DNA from: a virus
Strand: one strand, 5' to 3'
Virus record (IMG/VR): IMGVR_UViG_3300027852_000100
Coordinates: 1 to 38,455 of that record
DNA length: 38,455 nt
The stretch's first letter is position 1; each line of letters opens with the position of its first letter. This document shows positions 104-32,021 of this stretch, piece after piece. The position numbers and the translations under genes are program-made. The notes below the pieces were generated by a model. The model searched no databases, was not told where the DNA came from, and worked only from the letters and a program-made list of their open reading frames with translations.

Positions 104-733
104 TTATTTAATGTATCTATGATAATTGCAAGTCATCCAAAGAATTTCCGAATAAAGGATGACATGAGTTAATACAAAGTTTCCAGGAATTTCTTTGAAC
201 TTCATCCCGTTTGTAGACTCCAGAAAAAAACCGTCTGCGAAGACCATCGCGTGGCCTACTCCTTTAATTTCGATAAAGTCGAGCGCAATAAAAAAAGAGG
301 GTATTCCTAGTTTATTTCGCAAAATGTATTGGAGCAGTATGGCTTTGTCTTCGCAGTCGCCTGTTTTCAACGTGTAAGTTTCCTCAGGTGTTTGCCAATA
401 ATCTGATGGGTCGAATTTATATTCGATGTCGCATGTGACATATATCAAAGCATCTTCCATAGTTGTGACAGATATATCGTTTTCAAAATCATAAAAATCT
501 ATTTGTCCTATATACTTTTCATCGATAAGCTCACAGGCCGGCACAGATAGCAGGCAAAGAAAGATAACTCCGTACATCAGCCTGTCTTTTATTGTTGGTT
601 TCGGCCTGCCTTGGTTGTATACACGTCGCATTTCTATAACTTGTTTGTGGCTTACATCCAAATATGTTACGATATTTCTGTTAATCCAACCGGCTTTTAT
701 TAGCTCCAAGATTTGCTCATTTTTTTTATTCAT
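104..733 (-). CDS. HTH + membrane segment + transglutaminase-like cysteine protein
   Basis: This 209 aa protein has three parts. Residues 5-45 look like a helix-turn-helix (LELIKAGWINRNIVTYLDVS). Residues 53-67 are a hydrophobic stretch ending in VPAC, like a lipoprotein box. Residues 90-185 carry transglutaminase/cysteine-peptidase-like motifs: TGDCEDK with Cys127 and GHAMVF with His161. The start has a strong site (AAAGGAGACAGCCCA) and overlaps the upstream stop by 8 nt. An in-frame ATG at codon 53 (position 577) would give a plain lipoprotein precursor, MYGVIFLCLLSVPAC. The third catalytic residue is unclear (Glu172 or Asn175). It could be a cell-envelope peptidase or crosslinking enzyme; the role of the N-terminal DNA-binding-like region is unexplained. 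Confidence 0.65.
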   Translation of the reverse strand: MNKKNEQILELIKAGWINRNIVTYLDVSHKQVIEMRRVYNQGRPKPTIKDRLMYGVIFLCLLSVPACELIDEKYIGQIDFYDFENDISVTTMEDALIYVTCDIEYKFDPSDYWQTPEETYTLKTGDCEDKAILLQYILRNKLGIPSFFIALDFIEIKGVGHAMVFADGFFLESTNGMKFKEIPGNFVLTHVILYSEILWMTCNYHRYIK

Positions 734-1181
734 TGGGCTGTCTCCTTTCTTTATTATTTTTCTCTTCTTTCACTTTGGGGAGTTCTTCCATTAGCATCTC
801 AGGAGTAATTCCTTTCCAGCTCCACCCTATCCAAAAAAACCGGTTTTCGTCCTTTAGTTCTTTTAATTTATAGAATGCTTCTATTCGCATCTCGTCTGTG
901 ATGCCTGACCAATCACAACCTGCCCTGATAAGATATTCAGTATCTTTTAATTTATAGAATGCTTCTATTCGCATCTCATCGGTAACGATGTCTTGACAGC
1001 ATCCCATTTGATATTTCCACTCATCAATAAATTCATCCCAATGCTTCACCGCTCCAGCTTCTTTCGCAAGAGGCAAAAGAATATTAAAACATTTTTCATC
1101 TTTAATAGCTTTTCTTAACTTTGCATACTTCTTGCCTTTGAATATTTGCAATGCTAACTTTTTTTGCTTGCTACATTCCAT
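726..1181 (-). CDS. Short member of the GITDEMR 28-residue repeat family
   Basis: This 151 aa protein begins with a cap (KKLALQIFKGKKYAKLRKAIK, then an EHW/KHW region) that closely matches the N-termini of two other proteins in the window, at 28137 and 31830. Two or three repeats follow, built on TDEMRIEAFYKLK. It ends in a Lys/Glu-rich tail. The start has an AAAAAGGAGAAAAAATC site. Repeats with an amphipathic helix and aromatic turn suggest a solenoid used for binding, but no enzymatic motif is present. I do not recognise a named family. Confidence 0.75.
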   Translation of the reverse strand: MECSKQKKLALQIFKGKKYAKLRKAIKDEKCFNILLPLAKEAGAVKHWDEFIDEWKYQMGCCQDIVTDEMRIEAFYKLKDTEYLIRAGCDWSGITDEMRIEAFYKLKELKDENRFFWIGWSWKGITPEMLMEELPKVKEEKNNKERRQPNE

Positions 1182-1213
1182 GATTTTTTCTCCTTTTTAT
1201 TTGTAGTTACTTA

Positions 1214-1245
1214 CTCCTGCCATCTCATTTCCGAGAGGGCAGGAG
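1214..1245 (-). promoter_or_regulatory. Intercistronic GAAA-capped hairpin, copy 3
   Basis: Read on the minus strand, 14 nt pair with the following 14 nt around a GAAA loop (closed by a G-U pair, one C-U mismatch). It lies between the stop of the 52 aa gene and the ribosome site of the repeat-protein gene. It has no U tract after it, so it is not a standard terminator. It shares loop, length and flanks with two other copies in the same operon, at 1440-1471 and 1923-1954. Confidence 0.75.
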
Positions 1246-1252
1246 TAAAGAG

Positions 1253-1411
1253 CTATAGATTGGCTATGTCTCCCCAAATTTTGGGCGGGATAGCCATCCA
1301 GCTAGTTTCCTTTCCTGGTTTTTCTTTACGACTATAAAGCTTGTCGCTATAATAAGAAAATATTGAACATGCTATGAGGTATGTTGCTAAAAACAGTATC
1401 AAGTAACTCAT
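1253..1411 (-). CDS. 52 aa small membrane protein
   Basis: The frame opens at an ATG with AAAAAAAGGAGAAAGTC upstream and encodes a hydrophobic N-terminus (MSYLILFLATYLIACSIF) followed by a basic stretch and an aromatic/proline tail (WMAIPPKIWGD). One membrane helix with the C-terminus probably cytoplasmic is likely; the LIAC string could also be read as a weak lipoprotein box. It sits between two copies of the conserved hairpin. No family is recognised. A Rz-like, holin-like or superinfection role is possible but unsupported. Confidence 0.6.
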   Translation of the reverse strand: MSYLILFLATYLIACSIFSYYSDKLYSRKEKPGKETSWMAIPPKIWGDIANL

Positions 1412-1439
1412 GACTTTCTCCTTTTTTTATAGTTGCTTG

Positions 1440-1471
1440 CCCTTGTTATCCCATTTCTGGAATAGCAAGGG
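1440..1471 (-). promoter_or_regulatory. Intercistronic GAAA-capped hairpin, copy 2
   Basis: It has the same 14-bp stem and GAAA loop architecture as its sister copies, here closed by an A-U pair and with one C-A mismatch. It lies directly after the stop of the 56 aa gene and before the ribosome site of the 52 aa gene. Several stem positions change in a paired fashion relative to the other copies (for example stem position 8 is U-A here and C-G in the others). Confidence 0.75.
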
Positions 1472-1478
1472 TAAAGAA

Positions 1479-1649
1479 CTATTCGGTTTCATTGCGTACG
1501 ACATATTGATAAGGCTCGTCGTATATTCCATATCTGTCCAATTCCATCGTGATTTCAATCTTTACATCTTCAGCGAAACCCGGCTCTGCTTTTTGCATTC
1601 GGTCGGCTATTTTTTTTGCTTCTTTAAATGAATTGGTGTAAGTTATCAT
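1479..1649 (-). CDS. 56 aa acidic protein, paralogue of the 61 aa upstream gene
   Basis: It encodes MITYTNSFKEAKKIADRMQK..., clearly related along its length to the product of 1962-2147: both have SxKEAKK near the N-terminus, EPxxAEDV in the middle, GIYD.PY.Y near the end, and both end in NETE. The start is preceded by AAAAGGAGATAATCAA, part of which encodes the last codons of the upstream gene. The two paralogues and their trailing hairpins look like a duplicated gene-plus-hairpin unit. Function unknown. Confidence 0.75.
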   Translation of the reverse strand: MITYTNSFKEAKKIADRMQKAEPGFAEDVKIEITMELDRYGIYDEPYQYVVRNETE

Positions 1650-1653
1650 TTGA

Positions 1654-1890
1654 TTATCTCCTTTTCCCGTAAAATGTTATGAGTCTCCCTGTTACATTAT
1701 CATGATGACTAGTAGAGCAAAAACCTCTTTCCTCAAATTCTTTTTTGTAAGAAGCGAGTAATGATTTTTCGCTTTCTTCTCCTCTGCCTTTGCATTTGTC
1801 ATGTTTATAATAACGATTGAGATAGTCCTCAACGCTATCGGCTTCTACTGCGCAATCTTGAAAAAATAGGTAAGTTTCTTCTTTTGTCAT
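1654..1890 (-). CDS. 78 aa hypothetical protein
   Basis: The start is the ATG preceded by AAAAGGAGAACAGAATT. An upstream in-frame ATG would run back through the conserved hairpin and lacks a ribosome site. The product is hydrophilic with scattered Cys and His (CAVEADSVEDYLNRYYKHDK, then CSTSHHD) and ends in a basic GKRR. It resembles the short (about 75-80 aa) phage proteins containing a YxLxRYYKHDxC-like stretch, but I cannot name the family. The stop lies 4 nt before the next start, implying translational coupling. Confidence 0.65.
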   Translation of the reverse strand: MTKEETYLFFQDCAVEADSVEDYLNRYYKHDKCKGRGEESEKSLLASYKKEFEERGFCSTSHHDNVTGRLITFYGKRR

Positions 1891-1922
1891 AATTCTGTTC
1901 TCCTTTTTTTTATAGTTGCTTG

Positions 1923-1954
1923 CTCCTACCATCCCATTTCTGAGATGGCAAGAG
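1923..1954 (-). promoter_or_regulatory. Intercistronic GAAA-capped hairpin, copy 1
   Basis: On the minus strand the 14-nt arms pair completely, with G-U wobbles, around a GAAA tetraloop closed by A-U. It follows the stop of the 61 aa gene, with a shared TAGTTCTTTAC flank on the 5' side and GCAACTATAAAA before the next ribosome site. Flanks are shared with the copy at 1440-1471, including the end of the coding sequence. Confidence 0.75.
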
Positions 1955-1961
1955 TAAAGAA

Positions 1962-2147
1962 CTATTCGGTTTCGTTATGAATTACATATTCGTAAGGCGC
2001 GTCATAGATGCCGGAGTCTTTATTGCCTGATCCGTCCGTGCTCTCTGTTACTTGTATCCTTACATCTTCTGCATATTCGGGTTCTTCTTTTTGCATTGCA
2101 AGCGCTACCTTTTTTGCTTCTTTAAGTGAGTTTGCGTATTTTACCAT
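1962..2147 (-). CDS. 61 aa acidic protein, first gene of the leftward operon
   Basis: The product (MVKYANSLKEAKKVALAMQK...) is the paralogue of the 56 aa protein encoded at 1479-1649, with a five-residue insertion in the middle. The start has AAAAGGAGAAAAGAAAA upstream and lies about 33 nt downstream of the predicted transcription start. It is followed by the conserved hairpin. No domain is recognised. The short alpha/beta appearance is compatible with a small regulatory or inhibitor protein, but nothing in the sequence proves this. Confidence 0.75.
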   Translation of the reverse strand: MVKYANSLKEAKKVALAMQKEEPEYAEDVRIQVTESTDGSGNKDSGIYDAPYEYVIHNETE

Positions 2148-2187: not shown

Positions 2188-2216
2188 AATATACACAAGA
2201 TAAACAAAGTTGTCAA
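2188..2216 (-). promoter_or_regulatory. Sigma70-type promoter of the leftward operon
   Basis: On the minus strand the -35 box is TTGACA, a perfect match, followed by 17 bp and TATATT as -10 box. The predicted start is near 2181. It would drive the genes from 2147 down to the left edge of the window. Confidence 0.85.
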
Positions 2217-2274: not shown

Positions 2275-3219
2275 ATGGTATACATGGATCACATGAAAGA
2301 AACAACTAAAATAAAATACAAAATATATAGAATAAGATGGTGGTTGGTGCAGTATCTTGCGATGAAAAGACCTGTGCATGTTGATGTTGAGACAAACAAT
2401 ACATGTAATCAGAAATGCTTGTCATGTTGGCATTCTCAAGATGTATTGCCGTTTCGGCTAGGAAGCATGAAGCTGGGTGATGTCGAAAGAATTATAGACG
2501 AGGCTAGTCGACTTGGCGTGAAATCGATAAAGTTTAATTATCGGGGAGAGCCTTCTCTTTATAAATATATCACGGATGTTATTGATTATGCTAAAAGAAA
2601 GGGTATTGTTGATGTGATGATTAACACAAACGGGATAATGAGTCGGGAGAGACTGATAGACATAATAAAGGCAGGAATTACAACGCTAATTATTTCAGTT
2701 GATAGCTTTAAGTCTAACGTATACAGTATGATGCATAATACGACAAAGAGAATTCATTCACGTTTGTTGGGCAACTTAATTTTTTTGAATAGATTAAAAC
2801 AATTAAAACTAATAAAGACAACTCTTGTGATAAATATACACAAAAGCAATCTTAATAATTCGCAAGAGGATGAAGAGCATGACAAACAAAACATAAAGAA
2901 GCTTGATGGGTTTATTGTCAAGACGCGATATACTGAAGATAGAGAAGGCGATCATATCGCGTTTGTTCAGCACAAGAACAGAAAGAAAAGATGTCCGCAT
3001 ATGATGAGAAGGTTGGCAATTTTAGTTAACGGCAAGGTCTATCCTTGTTGTATGAGTTATCTCGAACCGAATGATTTACTTTTAGGAAATATATCTGAGA
3101 ACAAATTAGCGGATATTTGGAACGGAGAAAAGAGAAAGAAACTAATATCAGATTATGCAAAAGGGGTATATGTGAAATCATGTAAAAATTGCAAGTCGGG
3201 GGATATCTGGAAAAGATGA
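2275..3219 (+). CDS. Radical SAM protein with SPASM-type C-terminus
   Basis: The protein is 314 aa. The radical SAM [4Fe-4S] motif CNQKCLSC is at residues 44-51, followed by the typical NYRGEP and INTNGI barrel elements. The C-terminal region has Cys residues at about 240, 258-259, 303 and 306, with GKVYPCC and LGN, which is the SPASM/twitch pattern for auxiliary clusters. Such enzymes mature peptides or act on sugars and alcohols. The stop overlaps the next ATG (ATGA). Starts at 2275, 2284 and 2293 are all possible; none has a good ribosome site. It stands at the head of a rightward gene string leading into the terminase, next to a methyltransferase. The substrate is unknown. Confidence 0.85.
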   Translation: MVYMDHMKETTKIKYKIYRIRWWLVQYLAMKRPVHVDVETNNTCNQKCLSCWHSQDVLPFRLGSMKLGDVERIIDEASRLGVKSIKFNYRGEPSLYKYITDVIDYAKRKGIVDVMINTNGIMSRERLIDIIKAGITTLIISVDSFKSNVYSMMHNTTKRIHSRLLGNLIFLNRLKQLKLIKTTLVINIHKSNLNNSQEDEEHDKQNIKKLDGFIVKTRYTEDREGDHIAFVQHKNRKKRCPHMMRRLAILVNGKVYPCCMSYLEPNDLLLGNISENKLADIWNGEKRKKLISDYAKGVYVKSCKNCKSGDIWKR

Positions 3220-3497
3220 AAGATGTATTGACTATAGACAGAGAGATCTTTAGACTTCAGATAAGGTTTATCTCTTTTAGCAATCTAAAGACATTGCTTG
3301 AAGGTTTGTTTGTATACATAAAGGGAAGAGGAGAAAAATGGCTGGCAACGGCTGACGGAAAGGAGGTATTGTATGATCTCGAACGAAAACAAACAATTAT
3401 TTGGGCAGAACTTCAACGAAGAGGCAAGATGGATAAAAACGATATCGCAGAATTCCAGCGGTGGCTGTACAAAAAACACGAGAAAAAAATATATTGA
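3216..3497 (+). CDS. 93 aa hypothetical protein coupled to radical SAM gene
   Basis: The ATG overlaps the radical SAM stop as ATGA, which decides the start and suggests coupled translation. The product is basic and mostly helical (DREIFRLQIRFISF, then LKTLLEGLFVYIKGRG and a Lys-rich end). No domain is recognised. It is too long and lacks the usual short Cys/Gly-rich core expected for a modified-peptide substrate, so a partner role is a guess only. Confidence 0.65.
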   Translation: MKDVLTIDREIFRLQIRFISFSNLKTLLEGLFVYIKGRGEKWLATADGKEVLYDLERKQTIIWAELQRRGKMDKNDIAEFQRWLYKKHEKKIY

Positions 3498-3507
3498 GGG
3501 GTTTTTT

Positions 3508-4821
3508 ATGATTAAATTAATAGAATGTCCTGTTTGTGATAATGAGGATTGGAAGTCTTTAGATTATTTACGTGATAGGGATTACTGGATTGACAAAGAT
3601 TATATATTTGACGAGCAGATAGGGTTTAAGATATGCAAGACCTGCGGATTTGTTACATATGATTATGTCGAAGAAGAGATATTAAAAGAGAGATACAGGA
3701 GAGCGCGTCCTGTGATGCAATACGCTAATATTTTGACATGTAACAGGAAGAACGAATATCATAAAAAGTTTCTAACTTTAGATTTAATAAAGAAACTAGA
3801 AAGCGTCTACGATGTAGGCTGTGCGCAGGGGTCTTTTTTAAAGATGATGCGAGACAACGGAGTAAAAGAAGTTTCCGGATGTGAATGGAGCAAGGCTTTC
3901 AGAGATTACGCTATTTATGAATACGGGCTTAATGTTACTGAAGATGTCGAAATAGAAAATCGGCAGGACATGATTTGTTATTATCATGTATTCGAACATG
4001 TTCAATATCCGTCTGATGAGTTGCAAAAAGTAAACGAGCGCTTGAAAGATGATGGGTATTTATATATCGCAGTTCCTGAATACATGAATTATCTTGATGA
4101 GCCATCTGGAATGGTATGCGAAAACTTCGAGAAATTATATCAATTAGATCATGTGAACGTGTTTACAAAGACGTCCTTAAAAAATATTCTCAGTAGAAAC
4201 GGTTTTAAAATAATAAAAGAAGACGATAAAATATATGGATATACTGTTTTATGCCAAAAAGCGCTGATCGAAGCTTGCGTGAAAGAGGACCATGATGAGC
4301 TAGAGGGTATATTAAAAAAGCAAAAAGAGGCATTTGAGCATTTGAATAAAAACGAATTCAGTAAAGCGATAGAGGTTTTTCCAGCTTTCCCTGAAGCTTA
4401 CGTAGCTGCTTGTATACAACCGAACATGTTAAAAGATTTCGGAAAGCAGAAAGAGATGCTAGAGAAAGGGTTGAGCGTTTGCCCAGGTAGCGCAAAGATA
4501 AAGATGCAATTAGCAAGATTGTATTTTCAATGGGATGACAGCAATCCGCAAAAGACCTATTATTCTAATAACATAAGAAAGGCTGAAGAGATATTGAACG
4601 CTATAACAGAGGAGAAACCAGGAATAGAAGACTCTTATTATTTGCTTGCATTGATTGAAGCAAAGTATAAGAAAAACTATCAGAAAGCTAGAGAGTATTT
4701 GGGCAGAGTTCTGGAGATCAATCCGACTAAATTCACAGAGTGCAATCAGTTGATCGGATGGATATGGAAGGAACGAGGGCAAAACGAAGGGAAAGTTAAT
4801 GAAAGCGAAACGAGGTTATAA
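3508..4821 (+). CDS. Zinc-ribbon SAM-dependent methyltransferase with TPR C-terminus
   Basis: The start at ATGATTAAATTA follows TTGAGGGG; a longer upstream frame overlaps the previous gene and lacks a site. The 437 aa product has a CPVC...CKTCGF zinc ribbon (residues 6-45), a class I methyltransferase domain with motif I VYDVGCAQG and the post-motif YYHVFEHV, and the LDHVNVFTK string typical of Methyltransf_23-like enzymes of O-antigen and sugar clusters. From about residue 290 it becomes TPR-like (repeated YxxARxYxxWxxP/YxxAxEILxxI helices). Methylation of a sugar or small molecule is likely; the acceptor is unknown. Confidence 0.8.
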   Translation: MIKLIECPVCDNEDWKSLDYLRDRDYWIDKDYIFDEQIGFKICKTCGFVTYDYVEEEILKERYRRARPVMQYANILTCNRKNEYHKKFLTLDLIKKLESVYDVGCAQGSFLKMMRDNGVKEVSGCEWSKAFRDYAIYEYGLNVTEDVEIENRQDMICYYHVFEHVQYPSDELQKVNERLKDDGYLYIAVPEYMNYLDEPSGMVCENFEKLYQLDHVNVFTKTSLKNILSRNGFKIIKEDDKIYGYTVLCQKALIEACVKEDHDELEGILKKQKEAFEHLNKNEFSKAIEVFPAFPEAYVAACIQPNMLKDFGKQKEMLEKGLSVCPGSAKIKMQLARLYFQWDDSNPQKTYYSNNIRKAEEILNAITEEKPGIEDSYYLLALIEAKYKKNYQKAREYLGRVLEINPTKFTECNQLIGWIWKERGQNEGKVNESETRL

Positions 4822-24266: not shown

Positions 24267-24447
24267 AACTATCGGAGAATTATGCTTTCTTATCGAAGGC
24301 AATTTCGAAAGGCTGGAGGATAAGCTGGCGAGTATGGAAGAGAATATTGGCAGGATGCGTCATTTTGTTTATTGGGTTGCCGGCATTGTTGGCATGGCAA
24401 CAACTTCAATCTTTCTCGCCGGTTGTAAAATTCTCGGGATCATATAG
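24250..24447 (+). CDS. 65 aa membrane protein, XhlA/holin-accessory type
   Basis: It overlaps the previous gene by 17 nt. The N-terminal 38 residues are a helix with heptads (LCFLIEGNFERLEDKLASME), the C-terminal 25 form one membrane helix (FVYWVAGIVGMATTSIFLAG). This organisation matches XhlA-like lysis accessory proteins, usually found between tail fibres and lysis genes. Its 3' end overlaps the 3' end of the convergent neuA by 42 bp. Confidence 0.6.
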   Translation: MEKRPETIGELCFLIEGNFERLEDKLASMEENIGRMRHFVYWVAGIVGMATTSIFLAGCKILGII

Positions 24448-25119
24448 ATTTGATATCTTGTTTGCAATATCTAAATCTAGTTGCGTGTGTATGTCGCTGT
24501 CAAAAGAGGACTCATACGGAATTATGTGGCATTTATCGCCGATCCTTTTGCCTTCCCAAATCACAGATGGTCTTGTAGCTAACGCTATTCCGGTATCTTC
24601 TCTATATATGTGTTCCCGGATTTGTCGAGGTTTGCCATATGGGATCGTACTAGCAAGTCTTACAAAGTTATTTCCAACCGATCTCCAATAATTTTTATGT
24701 GTCGTCTTTCCCGCGAAACAACTATCTAGCTCGCAATTATCTATTAAAGCCTGAGCGCATTGGTCTATTATCCCTTGCGGTCTAAACAAGTCAGTGATTT
24801 GAGTATATACAATAATGTCGGGGTGATAGCGTTCGTTCCGGTCAAGCCACTTCAAAACGAACAATAAATTATTTTCAACTTCGGAATAGTATTCTGACAA
24901 ATACGAAGGACGGATAAAAGGCGTCTCAGCTCCTGCATCGTTTGCTATCAAAGCAATTTCGGGATTATCGGTTGAGACTATAATCCTATCGACAAGTTTC
25001 GCGTTTATTGAGTCGGTTATTGTATGCTCGATGAGAGGAACTTTATTAAACAACGCCAGATTTTTGCCTGGCAATCCCTTTGAATTTTTGCGGGCTAATA
25101 TAATTGAAAGTATTTTCAT
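24406..25119 (-). CDS. neuA: CMP-nonulosonate (sialic acid-type) cytidylyltransferase
   Basis: 237 aa starting at the ATG with GAGGTGATC upstream. The nucleotide-binding motif ARKNSKGLPGKNL is near the N-terminus, followed by IIVSTDNPEIALIANDAGAE, PFIRPSYLSE, an IIVYTQITDLFRP core (the equivalent of LQPTSPLR) and IHTQLDLDIANKI with the acidic pair near the C-terminus. The family activates Neu5Ac, legionaminic or pseudaminic acid with CTP. It is the last gene of a leftward operon with neuB and a glycosyltransferase. The exact sugar is unknown. Confidence 0.85.
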   Translation of the reverse strand: MKILSIILARKNSKGLPGKNLALFNKVPLIEHTITDSINAKLVDRIIVSTDNPEIALIANDAGAETPFIRPSYLSEYYSEVENNLLFVLKWLDRNERYHPDIIVYTQITDLFRPQGIIDQCAQALIDNCELDSCFAGKTTHKNYWRSVGNNFVRLASTIPYGKPRQIREHIYREDTGIALATRPSVIWEGKRIGDKCHIIPYESSFDSDIHTQLDLDIANKISNLYDPENFTTGEKD

Positions 25120-25127
25120 GATCACCT

Positions 25128-25736
25128 CTACGGAAAATTGTGTTGATGATAAACAACAGCGCCAGGCTCGTAAACAATTTGATGTTTTTCTTTAAGAACT
25201 GCTCGTGCCCAAATCTGGTCCTCTAAATGATCGGCGGTTTCATCAAATTTGATATCGTTCCAGATAGCCTTTTTTATAATACTGTTTGCGTTATGAAAAA
25301 AATCATCATCTATCCCTTTTTGGATTTTTTTCATGTCGCCAAATCGTTGATAAAAATAACCTGTAGGCATAAAATACTTATTCGCGACAAAAGGTTCCTG
25401 TTTCCCATATGCGCCTGCTACTGATTCAGGGAATATAGAATTCACTAAATTCGCTAATAAATGTTTGTTGCATGGAACGCAATGAGCGGATAGTATAACG
25501 ACATAATCACCCAAGGCTGCGTCTATTCCTAAATTAATAGCGGCGCCCGGTTTGTAATCAGTTATAGATAATATCTTTCTGATATTATGACGCTTTGCGA
25601 TATCAAGCGTTTTATCTATGCTTTCATTATCGACTATAATAATCTCGTAATCTTTAAATGATTGCTGATAAAGCATATTCAAACAATGCCCTAGCCATAT
25701 TTTTTCGTTTAGCGTTCTTATAACTATAGATATCAT
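25128..25736 (-). CDS. GT2-family glycosyltransferase
   Basis: 202 aa, starting at the ATG that overlaps the neuB stop as ATGA; a longer form begins 6 nt upstream. It has the GT-A nucleotide site (MISIVIRTLNEKIWL, IIIVDNESIDKTLDI) and, at the DxD position, YVVILSAHCVP, a variant seen in a GT2 subset. A likely base region is ADHLEDQIWARAV. It is short, lacking any membrane domain, so a cytoplasmic transfer onto a carrier or protein is expected. Donor and acceptor are unknown. Confidence 0.8.
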   Translation of the reverse strand: MISIVIRTLNEKIWLGHCLNMLYQQSFKDYEIIIVDNESIDKTLDIAKRHNIRKILSITDYKPGAAINLGIDAALGDYVVILSAHCVPCNKHLLANLVNSIFPESVAGAYGKQEPFVANKYFMPTGYFYQRFGDMKKIQKGIDDDFFHNANSIIKKAIWNDIKFDETADHLEDQIWARAVLKEKHQIVYEPGAVVYHQHNFP

Positions 25737-26530
25737 CCCCATCGCCCCCTGTAATTATTGTATGTATCCAATTCGCAAGTTTGCATGTCAACGCCTTTAT
25801 CGATATTGAACTTATCGAGATTATCTCTATATTCACATATTGCTTTAAGCTCATAAGGCAAGAGTGAAAATCGATTATCTCTGCCAGGCAGGGCGAGATC
25901 AATTGTGAAATGCTTCTCAAGATATGATATATCTTTATCTAATGCTGCGATGGAGTCCTGAATTCCAAAATAATGAGAGCTATATCCAACTGAGCGGCAT
26001 AACCGTTTCAGAAAATCTATGCGTGAGAGATTAACATTATCAGCCTCACAAGGATAATTAGAAACGCAATGCAATACAGACGCGCGATCAGGTGAGACGG
26101 TACGCAATGCCCTCTTGACTTCATTCGCGTAGCTTGCTCCTGTAGAAATAATAATGTTTTCGAAATTCGCATCAACGGCTTTCAATAGTTCTTTATTCGC
26201 TATTTCAGAACTGGGAACTTTAATAATGTCCATAAATTCCGATAGCCATTCAACATCCTCGACATTAAAAACTGACGTAAGAAATCTTACATTACGCGAC
26301 TTGCAATAATCGAATAAATCATAATGTTGTTGACGGGTTAATTCAGACTTTTTATAAATATCAAGACGGCCGTCAGTCATCCAAGGTCCTTCTTTCAAAT
26401 GCTTGACTTGCCATGTCTGAAATTTTACGAAATCTGCTCCCACCCTTGCGGCTTCGTCAATCATTTTTTTCGCTAGAGAGATGTCTCCGCCATGATTGCA
26501 TCCTATTTCAGCTATTATTTTACATTCCAT
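25733..26530 (-). CDS. neuB: NeuB-family nonulosonate synthase, barrel only
   Basis: 265 aa. The NeuB barrel motifs are complete: IAEIGCNHGGDISLAKKMID, ADFVKFQTW, VRFLTSVFNVEDVEWL, IKVPSSEIANKELL, IISTGAS, VLHCVSNYPC, GYSSHYFGIQDS and LEKHFTID...PGRDNRFSL. These condense PEP with an N-acylated sugar. Usual members are about 340-350 aa and carry a C-terminal SAF (antifreeze-like) lid; this one stops before it, and no separate SAF gene was seen. The start codon has no ribosome site and lies 6 nt after a -10 box. First gene of the operon. Confidence 0.85.
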   Translation of the reverse strand: MECKIIAEIGCNHGGDISLAKKMIDEAARVGADFVKFQTWQVKHLKEGPWMTDGRLDIYKKSELTRQQHYDLFDYCKSRNVRFLTSVFNVEDVEWLSEFMDIIKVPSSEIANKELLKAVDANFENIIISTGASYANEVKRALRTVSPDRASVLHCVSNYPCEADNVNLSRIDFLKRLCRSVGYSSHYFGIQDSIAALDKDISYLEKHFTIDLALPGRDNRFSLLPYELKAICEYRDNLDKFNIDKGVDMQTCELDTYNNYRGRWG

Positions 26531-28136: not shown

Positions 28137-29096
28137 ATGGAATATGTTGAACAAAGAAAGCTGGCATCGCAAATATTCACAGGCAAGAAATATGCAGAGT
28201 TAAGAAAAGCGATTAGGGAAGGGAAGTGTTTTGTAATGCTTGCTCCCATCGCAGAAAAAGCTGGAGCTATAGAGCATTGGAATAGCTTTCTTGATGAGTG
28301 GAAATATTTAGCGGGTTGTAATTGGTCGGACATTACTAATGAGATGAGAATAGAAGCATTCGCTAAATTAAAAGATGAAAAGCATATTTATTATACAGGC
28401 TGCGATTGGTCGGGCATTACTGATGAGATGAGAATAAAAGCATTCACTAAATTAAAAGACGAAATATGGATATATTGGGCTGGTCGATATTGGCATGGCA
28501 TTACAGACGAGATGAGAAGAGAAGCATTCTTTAAATTAAAAGACGGGCATCAGACATATTATGCTGGTCGATGTTGGCATGGCATTACAGACGAAATGAG
28601 GATAGAAGCATTCTTTAAATTAAAAGACGAGCATTGGATATATTGGGCAGGCGAAGAGTTTTCGGGCATTACCGACGAAATGCGAGCAAAAGCATTCTTT
28701 AAAATGGAAAACGGAAGCTGGACGCACTGGACAGGCAGTAATTGGTCAGGCATTACAGACGAGATGAGAATAAAAGTATTCTATAAATTAAAAGACGCGG
28801 AATGGATATATTGGGCAGGCAAAGAGTTTTCGGGCATTACAGACGAGATGAGAAGAGAAGCATTCTTTAAATTAAAAGACGGGCGTTGGACATATTATGC
28901 AGGTCGATATTGGCATGGCATTACAGACGAAATGAGGATAGAAGCATTCTTTAAATTAAAAGACGGGCGTTGGACATATTATGCAGGTCGATGTTGGCAT
29001 GGCATTACAGACGAAATGCGAGCAAAAGCATTTTCTAAACTAAAAGAAAAAAAATGGATAGGTTATTCTAAGAAATATTGGAGCGGGATATCTTAA
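28137..29096 (+). CDS. Large GITDEMR repeat protein, nine 28-residue repeats
   Basis: 319 aa, starting after AAAAGGAGAAGATGAA. A 64-residue cap (EQRKLASQIFTGKKYAELRK..., EHWNSFLDEWKY) is followed by nine repeats of 28 residues (65-316) with consensus GITDEMRxEAFFKLKDxxWxY then YxAGxxWx, and a final GIS. Each repeat would form a helix and an aromatic-rich turn. The N-terminal cap and the repeats recur in the proteins at 726 and 31830. No catalytic motif or signal peptide. Probably a binding solenoid in the cytoplasm; target unknown. Nearly identical adjacent repeats indicate recent tandem duplication. Confidence 0.85.
   Translation: MEYVEQRKLASQIFTGKKYAELRKAIREGKCFVMLAPIAEKAGAIEHWNSFLDEWKYLAGCNWSDITNEMRIEAFAKLKDEKHIYYTGCDWSGITDEMRIKAFTKLKDEIWIYWAGRYWHGITDEMRREAFFKLKDGHQTYYAGRCWHGITDEMRIEAFFKLKDEHWIYWAGEEFSGITDEMRAKAFFKMENGSWTHWTGSNWSGITDEMRIKVFYKLKDAEWIYWAGKEFSGITDEMRREAFFKLKDGRWTYYAGRYWHGITDEMRIEAFFKLKDGRWTYYAGRCWHGITDEMRAKAFSKLKEKKWIGYSKKYWSGIS
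28329..29084 (+). repeat. Nine tandem 84-bp coding repeats
   Basis: Nine in-frame units of 84 bp. Units 7 and 8 differ at only a few bases, and the order IYWAG..FS, TYYAGR.WH recurs (units 3-4 and 6-8), which points to duplication of one- and multi-unit blocks. Repeat number is likely variable between relatives and prone to collapse in assembly. Confidence 0.9.
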
Positions 29097-29151: not shown

Positions 29152-29796
29152 ATGGAAGACAACAAAAACATCGAAGTTATCAAAAAGTTATCAGAGAATT
29201 TAGATCAGGCGGGCATACAAAGAACTGACAAAAACAAGACACACAAAGGGTATGACACGACGGGATTTGGATATCAGTATGATGTCGATAGGTTTAACGA
29301 AGTTTTGGGGATAGAATGGGGGTATAGCTGGGAGATCATTCATCATGAGAAGGGGGCATATCAATCTGGACAAGCTTGTCACGACATAACTGTGAGAGTA
29401 TATATTTGGATAATAGAAAGGGGAAACTGTAGAGATTGTGTTGGCGGGCATACAAGTTCTACTTATGCGGATGCTCTGAAGGGAGCAATGACGAACGGTT
29501 TTAAAAAGACAGCCGCTTTCTGGGGAGTAGGAAGAGAAGCTTATGCGGGAGAAATTGATGACGACAATAAGCCTTTACCCGATAAGCATGAGAATAGAGT
29601 AGTGACTCCCCAACTATCGCAAAAAGAGCAGGCGATCAAATATCTTGATGAGCTGCCTCAATCTGTAAAAGATTTTTTTAAAGTGGTGGGAATTCCGCAG
29701 GAAAGCCAGTGGGCGTTTTGTCAAAAACATAAATTCGATATCGATATGATCAGAGGGGAAGTTGAAGCTACAACGACCAAGGAGGAAAACAAATGA
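29152..29796 (+). CDS. Rad52/22-like single-strand annealing protein
   Basis: 214 aa, start after AACAAGGAGATAAAATA. The Rad52/22 (Sak-like) annealing signature is visible: GYDTTGFGYQYDVDRFNEVLG, a beta region with VRVYIWIIE, and YADALKGAMTNGFKKTAAFWG (residues about 105-125), then VGREAYAGEID. The C-terminal third is charged. It anneals complementary single strands during phage recombination and works here with the RusA-like resolvase. The next gene overlaps by ATGA. Confidence 0.85.
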   Translation: MEDNKNIEVIKKLSENLDQAGIQRTDKNKTHKGYDTTGFGYQYDVDRFNEVLGIEWGYSWEIIHHEKGAYQSGQACHDITVRVYIWIIERGNCRDCVGGHTSSTYADALKGAMTNGFKKTAAFWGVGREAYAGEIDDDNKPLPDKHENRVVTPQLSQKEQAIKYLDELPQSVKDFFKVVGIPQESQWAFCQKHKFDIDMIRGEVEATTTKEENK

Positions 29797-31693: not shown

Positions 31694-31822
31694 ATGAGAT
31701 GTAATGAATGCGATGCAGAAATGATAATCGATGAGTGGAGCGGCTGGATATGGTTTTGCTGCCATTGCGGCCATGAAGGCAGGAAAGCAACGTCGAAAGA
31801 AATTGAAGAGATGGAGGAATAA
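31694..31822 (+). CDS. 42 aa zinc-ribbon protein
   Basis: CNECDAEM and CCHCGHEG form a two-knuckle zinc ribbon with a Trp-rich link (EWSGWIWF). The ATG follows AAGGAGACAAGTT. Function unknown. Confidence 0.6.
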   Translation: MRCNECDAEMIIDEWSGWIWFCCHCGHEGRKATSKEIEEMEE

Positions 31823-31829
31823 AAGGGAA

Positions 31830-32021
31830 ATGGAATATGATGATCAAAAAAAGTTAGCATTGCAAATATTCAAAGGCAAGAAATATGCAGAGTTGAGAAA
31901 AGCTATTAAGAATAGAGAATGCAAGGTGCAAATGAAAACACCTTCTAAATTATGGGTATCTTCCGCAGGCCGTTTTAGAACTGGCTTTACCGATGAGATA
32001 AAAACGATAGGAGTTGAATAA
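31830..32021 (+). CDS. Degenerate member of the GITDEMR repeat family
   Basis: 63 aa. The N-terminal cap (DQKKLALQIFKGKKYAELRK) nearly matches the caps at 726 and 28137, but the body is short, with a single degenerate half-repeat (SAGRFRTGFTDEIKTIG). It looks like a decayed or recombined copy, although it keeps a ribosome-site-like AAAAGGGAA and couples to the next gene by TAATG. Confidence 0.65.
   Translation: MEYDDQKKLALQIFKGKKYAELRKAIKNRECKVQMKTPSKLWVSSAGRFRTGFTDEIKTIGVE

Follow-up and report, generated by a model that had tools for sequence, protein, structure and literature searches.

Stem-loops that recur between phage genes have been described in several settings. In bacteriophage T7, R1.1, 60 nt long and located between genes 1.0 and 1.1, serves as an RNase III site of the early mRNA and contains an asymmetric 4/5-nt internal loop (PMC6121014). 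In T4-type phages, the promoter early stem-loops (PeSLs) are, in the account given of them in PMC4503421, repeated stem-loop cassettes located between variable-region genes and are said to mediate shuffling; the title of Comeau 2014 presents them as a promoter and a terminator combined, and PeSLs are also the subject of Arbiol 2010. The ESAS/SAS elements of cluster K mycobacteriophages are repeated imperfect inverted repeats just upstream of the starts of non-structural genes. ESAS are associated with different gene families, and the authors suggested that they may be targets for homologous recombination and found little support for pairing of the arms as RNA (PMC3203893).

Phages change their accessory and anti-defense genes quickly, and the means by which whole genes are swapped without breaking an operon are only partly understood. 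The subject of this study is a phage operon in which one structured element marks the 3' ends of successive genes, supplies a stop codon, and coincides with breakpoints between phages. The window, by which we mean the whole stretch of DNA analyzed, corresponds to one linear IMG/VR virus record (38,455 bases, GC 39%) and encodes a head protease, a major head protein, a tape-measure protein, and a DnaB helicase. The hairpin-bearing operon runs leftward at 1–2,216, in the orientation opposite to that of the structural genes, and its genes are swappable accessory genes of a little-known phage group. The same operon is present in L006, a related 14.8-kb contig, where it runs towards genes matching the far end of the window (window 38041–38367 matches L006 8494–8961). 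Judging from the gene order of L006, the window ends (1 and 38455) would adjoin in the phage genome, and the window probably represents a nearly complete genome in circularly permuted form. The predicted promoter-like site that precedes the operon genes, at its head, is kept in place, with counterparts in L006 (4212) and in a second related contig, L005 (10400). The sites of the three operons have in common TTGACA-17-TATATT or TATCTT, and the hairpin-bearing genes would lie on one transcript behind this single site. Coordinates of the features are given in Table 1.

Table 1. Features of the window that bear on the hairpin-bearing operon
Feature	Position	Strand	Remarks
Transglutaminase-like gene	104..733	-	Near operon end; common to all three phages
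151-aa gene	726..1181	-	After hairpin copy 1; at this place without counterpart in L005 or L006
Hairpin unit copy 1 (w1)	1202..1257	-	Core 1214-1245; 13/14 inner pairs; GAAA loop
52-aa gene	1253..1411	-	Hairpin directly 3' in window and L006, none in L005
Hairpin unit copy 2 (w2)	1428..1483	-	Core 1440-1471; 13/14 inner pairs; GAAA loop
Gene B, 56 aa	1479..1649	-	Paralogue of A; hairpin directly 3' in window and L006
78-aa gene	1654..1890	-	Between hairpin copy 3 and gene B; without own hairpin; phrog_11469
Hairpin unit copy 3 (w3)	1911..1966	-	Core 1923-1954; 14/14 inner pairs; GAAA loop
Gene A, 61 aa	1962..2147	-	Hairpin directly 3' in all three phages
Promoter-like site, head of operon	2188..2216	-	TTGACA-17-TATATT; consensus match 11/12
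Rad52-like single-strand annealing protein	29152..29796	+	PF04098; E 2.8e-5, above curated cut-off

Several other features of the window were recorded. Between the hairpin operon and the terminase, at 2275–4821 (+), are a radical SAM/SPASM protein and an adjoining 482-aa ORF that reads as methyltransferase-like; neither L005 nor L006 yielded a homologue. At 24406–26530 (−), part of a sialic-acid-type sugar pathway is encoded in the phage by three consecutive genes, for a NeuB-family synthase, a family 2 glycosyltransferase, and a cytidylyltransferase. The gene at 28137–29096 (+) contains eight 84-nt (28-aa) repeats and has relatives on both strands, at 726–1181 (−), which adjoins hairpin 1 on its downstream side, and at 31731–32021 (+); an N-terminal segment of ~30 aa is common to all three.

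The first-pass annotation had placed three GAAA-capped hairpins on the minus strand in the leftward operon, and all three were found there, on the coding strand of that operon. It described each as a 32-nt element with a 14-bp stem, situated between a stop codon and the next ribosome site. The 32 nt proved to be the inner hairpin of a larger unit of ~55 nt (56-nt spans in the window), and the full 14-bp stem occurs in copy 3, which has no mismatch; copy 1 has one C.U and copy 2 one C.A mismatch. The unit consists of a 6-bp outer stem (AUAGUU/AACUAU), a bulge, 3 bp (CUU/AAG), a small internal loop, and the 14-position stem that bears the loop. In all three window units the outer stem contains TAG, the stop codon of the upstream gene (1255–1253 for the 52-aa gene, 1481–1479 for gene B, and 1964–1962 for gene A), and the 3' end of the unit is ~10 nt before the next ribosome site. 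With 23 pairs over 54 nt between cistrons, the unit has the dimensions of a T7-type long imperfect hairpin (at least ~20 bp).

Both strands of the window were scanned for GNRA hairpins with a 14-position stem, no more than two mismatches, and at least five G-C pairs. Exactly three were found, compared with a mean of 0.05 and a maximum of 1 in first-order Markov sequences matched to the window in length and composition. The predicted fold energies of the three 56-nt units were −27.6, −23.4, and −27.0 kcal/mol, with z scores of −7.0, −5.5, and −7.0, and none of 200 shuffles folded as well. As the first-pass annotation had reported, no U tract follows the stems; an A tract is found there instead, and terminator prediction on the three contigs called no intrinsic terminator at the units. 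A scan for sigma-70-type promoters gave no sense-strand match inside any unit. In Rfam 15 no family scored above its gathering score; only microRNA models appeared, far below theirs.

A pattern search derived from the three copies identified two related viral contigs, L005 (also L003; IMGVR_UViG_3300027852_000238) and L006 (also L004; IMGVR_UViG_3300027852_000249), with four copies each, for a total of 11. The eight further copies lie in the same operon and in the same orientation as in the window, and all 11 are on the sense strand. A covariance model (R1), the check proposed for the three hairpins at the outset, recovered all 11 copies, pairs changed on both sides among them, and gave no additional match above chance, whether in the window, the related contigs, the terminase relatives, or a set of 56 loci sharing flanks by chance. 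One weak match, in the terminase relative L009 (19.6 bits, E 0.46), was not accepted as a copy. DNA patterns searched against viral contigs and bacterial and archaeal genomes returned only the two related contigs plus chance matches, which were dropped after failing folding or the covariance model. Only 23–27-nt chance matches were obtained by blastn against phage records, and relatives sought by means of the transglutaminase, capsid protein, and DnaB were either the same contigs or too distant. The element appears rare as judged by pattern searches. The sample comprises three contigs, two of which derive from a single metagenome, and the copy counts given below are inflated and not independent because the copies share ancestry.

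In 9 of the 11 copies, the upstream gene terminates on the TAG of the unit. In L6a this TAG directly follows a TAA stop in the same frame, and in L5d it is located 8 nt past a TGA stop. Ten copies have a GNRA loop (GAAA, GGAA, or GGGA); the sole exception is L6d, with a five-base loop. The tip of L6d (L006 6397–6474, +) reads CTTC where GAAAT would be expected. Downstream flanks of the units are A-rich and hold GGAG only.

The hairpins had been described initially as covarying, with pair changes quoted at stem positions 2, 4, and 8; the changes themselves were correct, apart from position 4 being listed in the order copy 3, 2, 1. Across the 11 copies, standard pairs occupied 95.7% of the 253 pair cells, compared with 40–57% when the partner was slid. 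Four pairs had changed on both sides. Compared with shuffles, this covariation was marginal (23/500 for the score and 48/500 for pairs changed on both sides), and the term covarying holds for these four pairs and is not strong proof. Few pairs were broken when substitution was modeled as uniform (P 0.013), but the number was that expected by chance once the changed pairs were fixed (P 0.59). Stem substitutions comprised 45 transitions and 2 transversions, compared with 370 and 181 in the neighboring genes; when distinct changes were compared with synonymous sites, the transition excess was not significant (P 0.17).

In all 11 copies the inner hairpin was predicted to have its more stable form on the sense strand (mean difference from the antisense strand 5.8 kcal/mol, Wilcoxon P 0.001, based on predicted energies), and in ten copies its stem contained 20 G.U cells versus 5 A.C cells. 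For the whole unit the sense and antisense energies did not differ (P 0.31), and four of the 11 copies folded clearly better on the antisense strand. Many unpaired positions, the outer ones included, were conserved as much as paired ones, a pattern that also fits conservation as DNA. From this mixture of strand, pairing, and covariation results, we conclude that selection probably acts on the inner hairpin as RNA and that the outer part of the unit may be kept for other reasons. These results support the structured sense-strand element of the first-pass annotation, which had missed the link between the hairpins and exchangeable cassettes.

Duplication accounts for part of the similarity among the window copies. 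Genes A and B are paralogues that share 73% DNA identity across 103 nt, and copies 3 and 2 follow them, so the similarity of these two copies is partly that of a duplicated gene plus its hairpin; copy 1 follows an ORF unrelated to A or B. Between phages, the hairpins that follow gene A differ at 4–8 of 60 positions, those that follow B at 4, and those that follow the 52-aa gene at 14.

Gene orders were compared among the three operons, with a few start codons assigned from the ribosome site; H denotes a hairpin. The order in the window is A-H, 78 aa, B-H, 52 aa-H, 151 aa. In L006 it is 55 aa, 50 aa, A-H, ArdC-like 275 aa-H, B-H, 70 aa, 52 aa-H, pentapeptide repeat, and in L005 it is 55 aa, 68 aa-H, 82 aa, A-H, 102 aa-H, 167 aa-H, 52 aa, pentapeptide repeat. 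The content between hairpins differs completely, and the flanking genes are 75–98% identical in protein. Where the phages share DNA homology, each block opens at a ribosome site or start codon and closes shortly after a hairpin; for example, the B block (window 1649–1415 versus L006 5786–6019) is 92% identical, and the A blocks stop at window 1894, L005 11485, and L006 4887–4906. The junction after the 52-aa gene contains a hairpin in L006 (6406–6461) and is empty in L005 (12583–12612), with ATA at both unit ends. Some copies share sequence in part despite unrelated neighbors: w3 and L6d have identical left arms, and w1 and L5a have the downstream 24 bases in common. On this comparison of sequences, each gene together with the hairpin behind it resembles a single exchangeable unit.

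The hairpin-bounded gene at L006 4890–5717 (+) encodes an ArdC-like anti-restriction protein (ArdcN plus MPTase-PolyVal). Its presence among the hairpin-bounded genes suggests that the operon may be an anti-defense operon.

We propose that the unit is an intercistronic hairpin that processes or stabilizes mRNA, travels with gene cassettes, and serves as a recombination linker; our confidence in this proposal is evenly balanced. Once ribosomes had cleared the stop codon, the hairpin would fold in the polycistronic accessory-gene mRNA and would either be cut by host RNase III or act as a barrier to 3'-to-5' decay. Each cistron would thereby gain its own protected 3' end, and the next ribosome site would stay open. 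The hairpin would be inherited as the 3' end of the preceding gene, and the ~55-bp copies would offer homology for swapping, duplicating, and losing gene cassettes. Proteins of the Rad52-like family anneal single strands and can recombine short homologies, and the one encoded in the window is a possible agent of cassette exchange. We infer both the processing or stabilization and the recombination route; the position of the unit, its repetition as a sense-strand hairpin, and its association with cassette boundaries are direct observations. Processing or 3'-end protection is favored because the stop-codon position, the exposed ribosome site, the length, and the serial layout resemble those of T7 RNase III sites. 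The three roles offered in the first-pass annotation would look alike at the level of sequence; among them, an RNase site or a stabilizer appears to fit best, and the poorest fit is a protein-binding operator that masks the ribosome site, since that site lies outside the stem. A broader idea, which we regard as doubtful, is that the locus of this tailed phage is an integron-like array of cassettes, in which a structured, stop-codon-fused element both matures the message and hosts gain, loss, and reordering of cassettes without a promoter or integrase of its own.

The leading alternative is that the unit is kept chiefly as DNA, as a ~55-bp homology linker or a small palindromic mobile element located where genes end and accessory genes are exchanged, with the RNA hairpin a by-product. 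This is a real possibility, if on balance an unlikely one. The complete difference in gene content between conserved flanks, the homology blocks that break at hairpins, the filled and empty junctions bounded by ATA, the partial sharing among copies with unrelated neighbors, the encoded Rad52-like protein, and the conservation of outer unpaired positions are all consistent with it. A pure DNA linker, however, requires neither a palindrome nor a fixed orientation; yet every copy is sense-oriented and placed at a stop codon, the inner stem is invariably better on the sense strand, and all copies but one have a GNRA loop. The linker role and the processing or protection proposed above can both be true.

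An improbable alternative is a translational element, which would either govern coupling between neighboring genes, by bringing the stop codon near the next ribosome site or keeping that site unstructured, or serve as the operator for a phage RNA-binding protein. The fixed placement of the unit, which starts at the stop codon and stops just short of the ribosome site, agrees with such a role, as does the GNRA loop, a common docking motif. However, the ribosome site is A-rich and outside the stem, hence not hidden, and genes that have no hairpin have the same type of ribosome site (e.g., L005 12583–12612). An operator would also have to accommodate a loop that is not invariant (L6d), and there is no candidate binding protein; the structure model of the small A protein is of low confidence.

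It is highly improbable that the units are terminators or attenuators of a type that needs no U tract. Each is a strong hairpin immediately 3' of a stop codon, but an A tract takes the place of the U tract, none was called, and serial terminators after nearly every gene behind a single promoter would silence the genes downstream. An integron-type recombination site (attC) is the least probable reading: the layout of one gene and one palindrome with exchanged cassettes recalls it, but by inspection the unit ends do not fit RYYYAAC/GTTRRRY, and no integrase was found in the subset of ORFs scanned, an enzyme that could also be the host's.

If our proposal is true, the hairpin unit would serve as a signature by which cassette exchange could be searched for, and would link gene shuffling to message processing in a way that can be tested. 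Of the known systems, the T7 RNase III sites appear analogous in being hairpins of ~60 nt that contain internal loops and separate the genes of a single early transcript. Compared with R1.1, the present units have a one-base bulge, a small internal loop, and usually a GNRA cap. Like PeSLs, as far as the cited accounts describe them, they repeat between shuffled genes of a variable region; unlike PeSLs as presented there, they had no promoter match in a scan for the sigma-70 type and no terminator-type stem-loop, an A tract following the stem and no terminator being called. They share with ESAS the repetition of inverted repeats between genes, but their arms pair (in the percentage of cells given above), their sequence is different, and the 13-bp SAS motif GGGATAGGAGCCC is absent at start sites here. 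They resemble attC sites in the succession of one gene and one palindrome within arrays of exchangeable cassettes, but the unit ends read TAGTTCTTTAC and GCAAGYAACTA in place of attC core sites, and the ORFs scanned, a subset, include no integrase. Because the promoter and terminator of PeSLs and the cores of attC were not found, and because ESAS are said not to pair, we assign the element to none of these classes and place it among the repeated intergenic stem-loops of phages.
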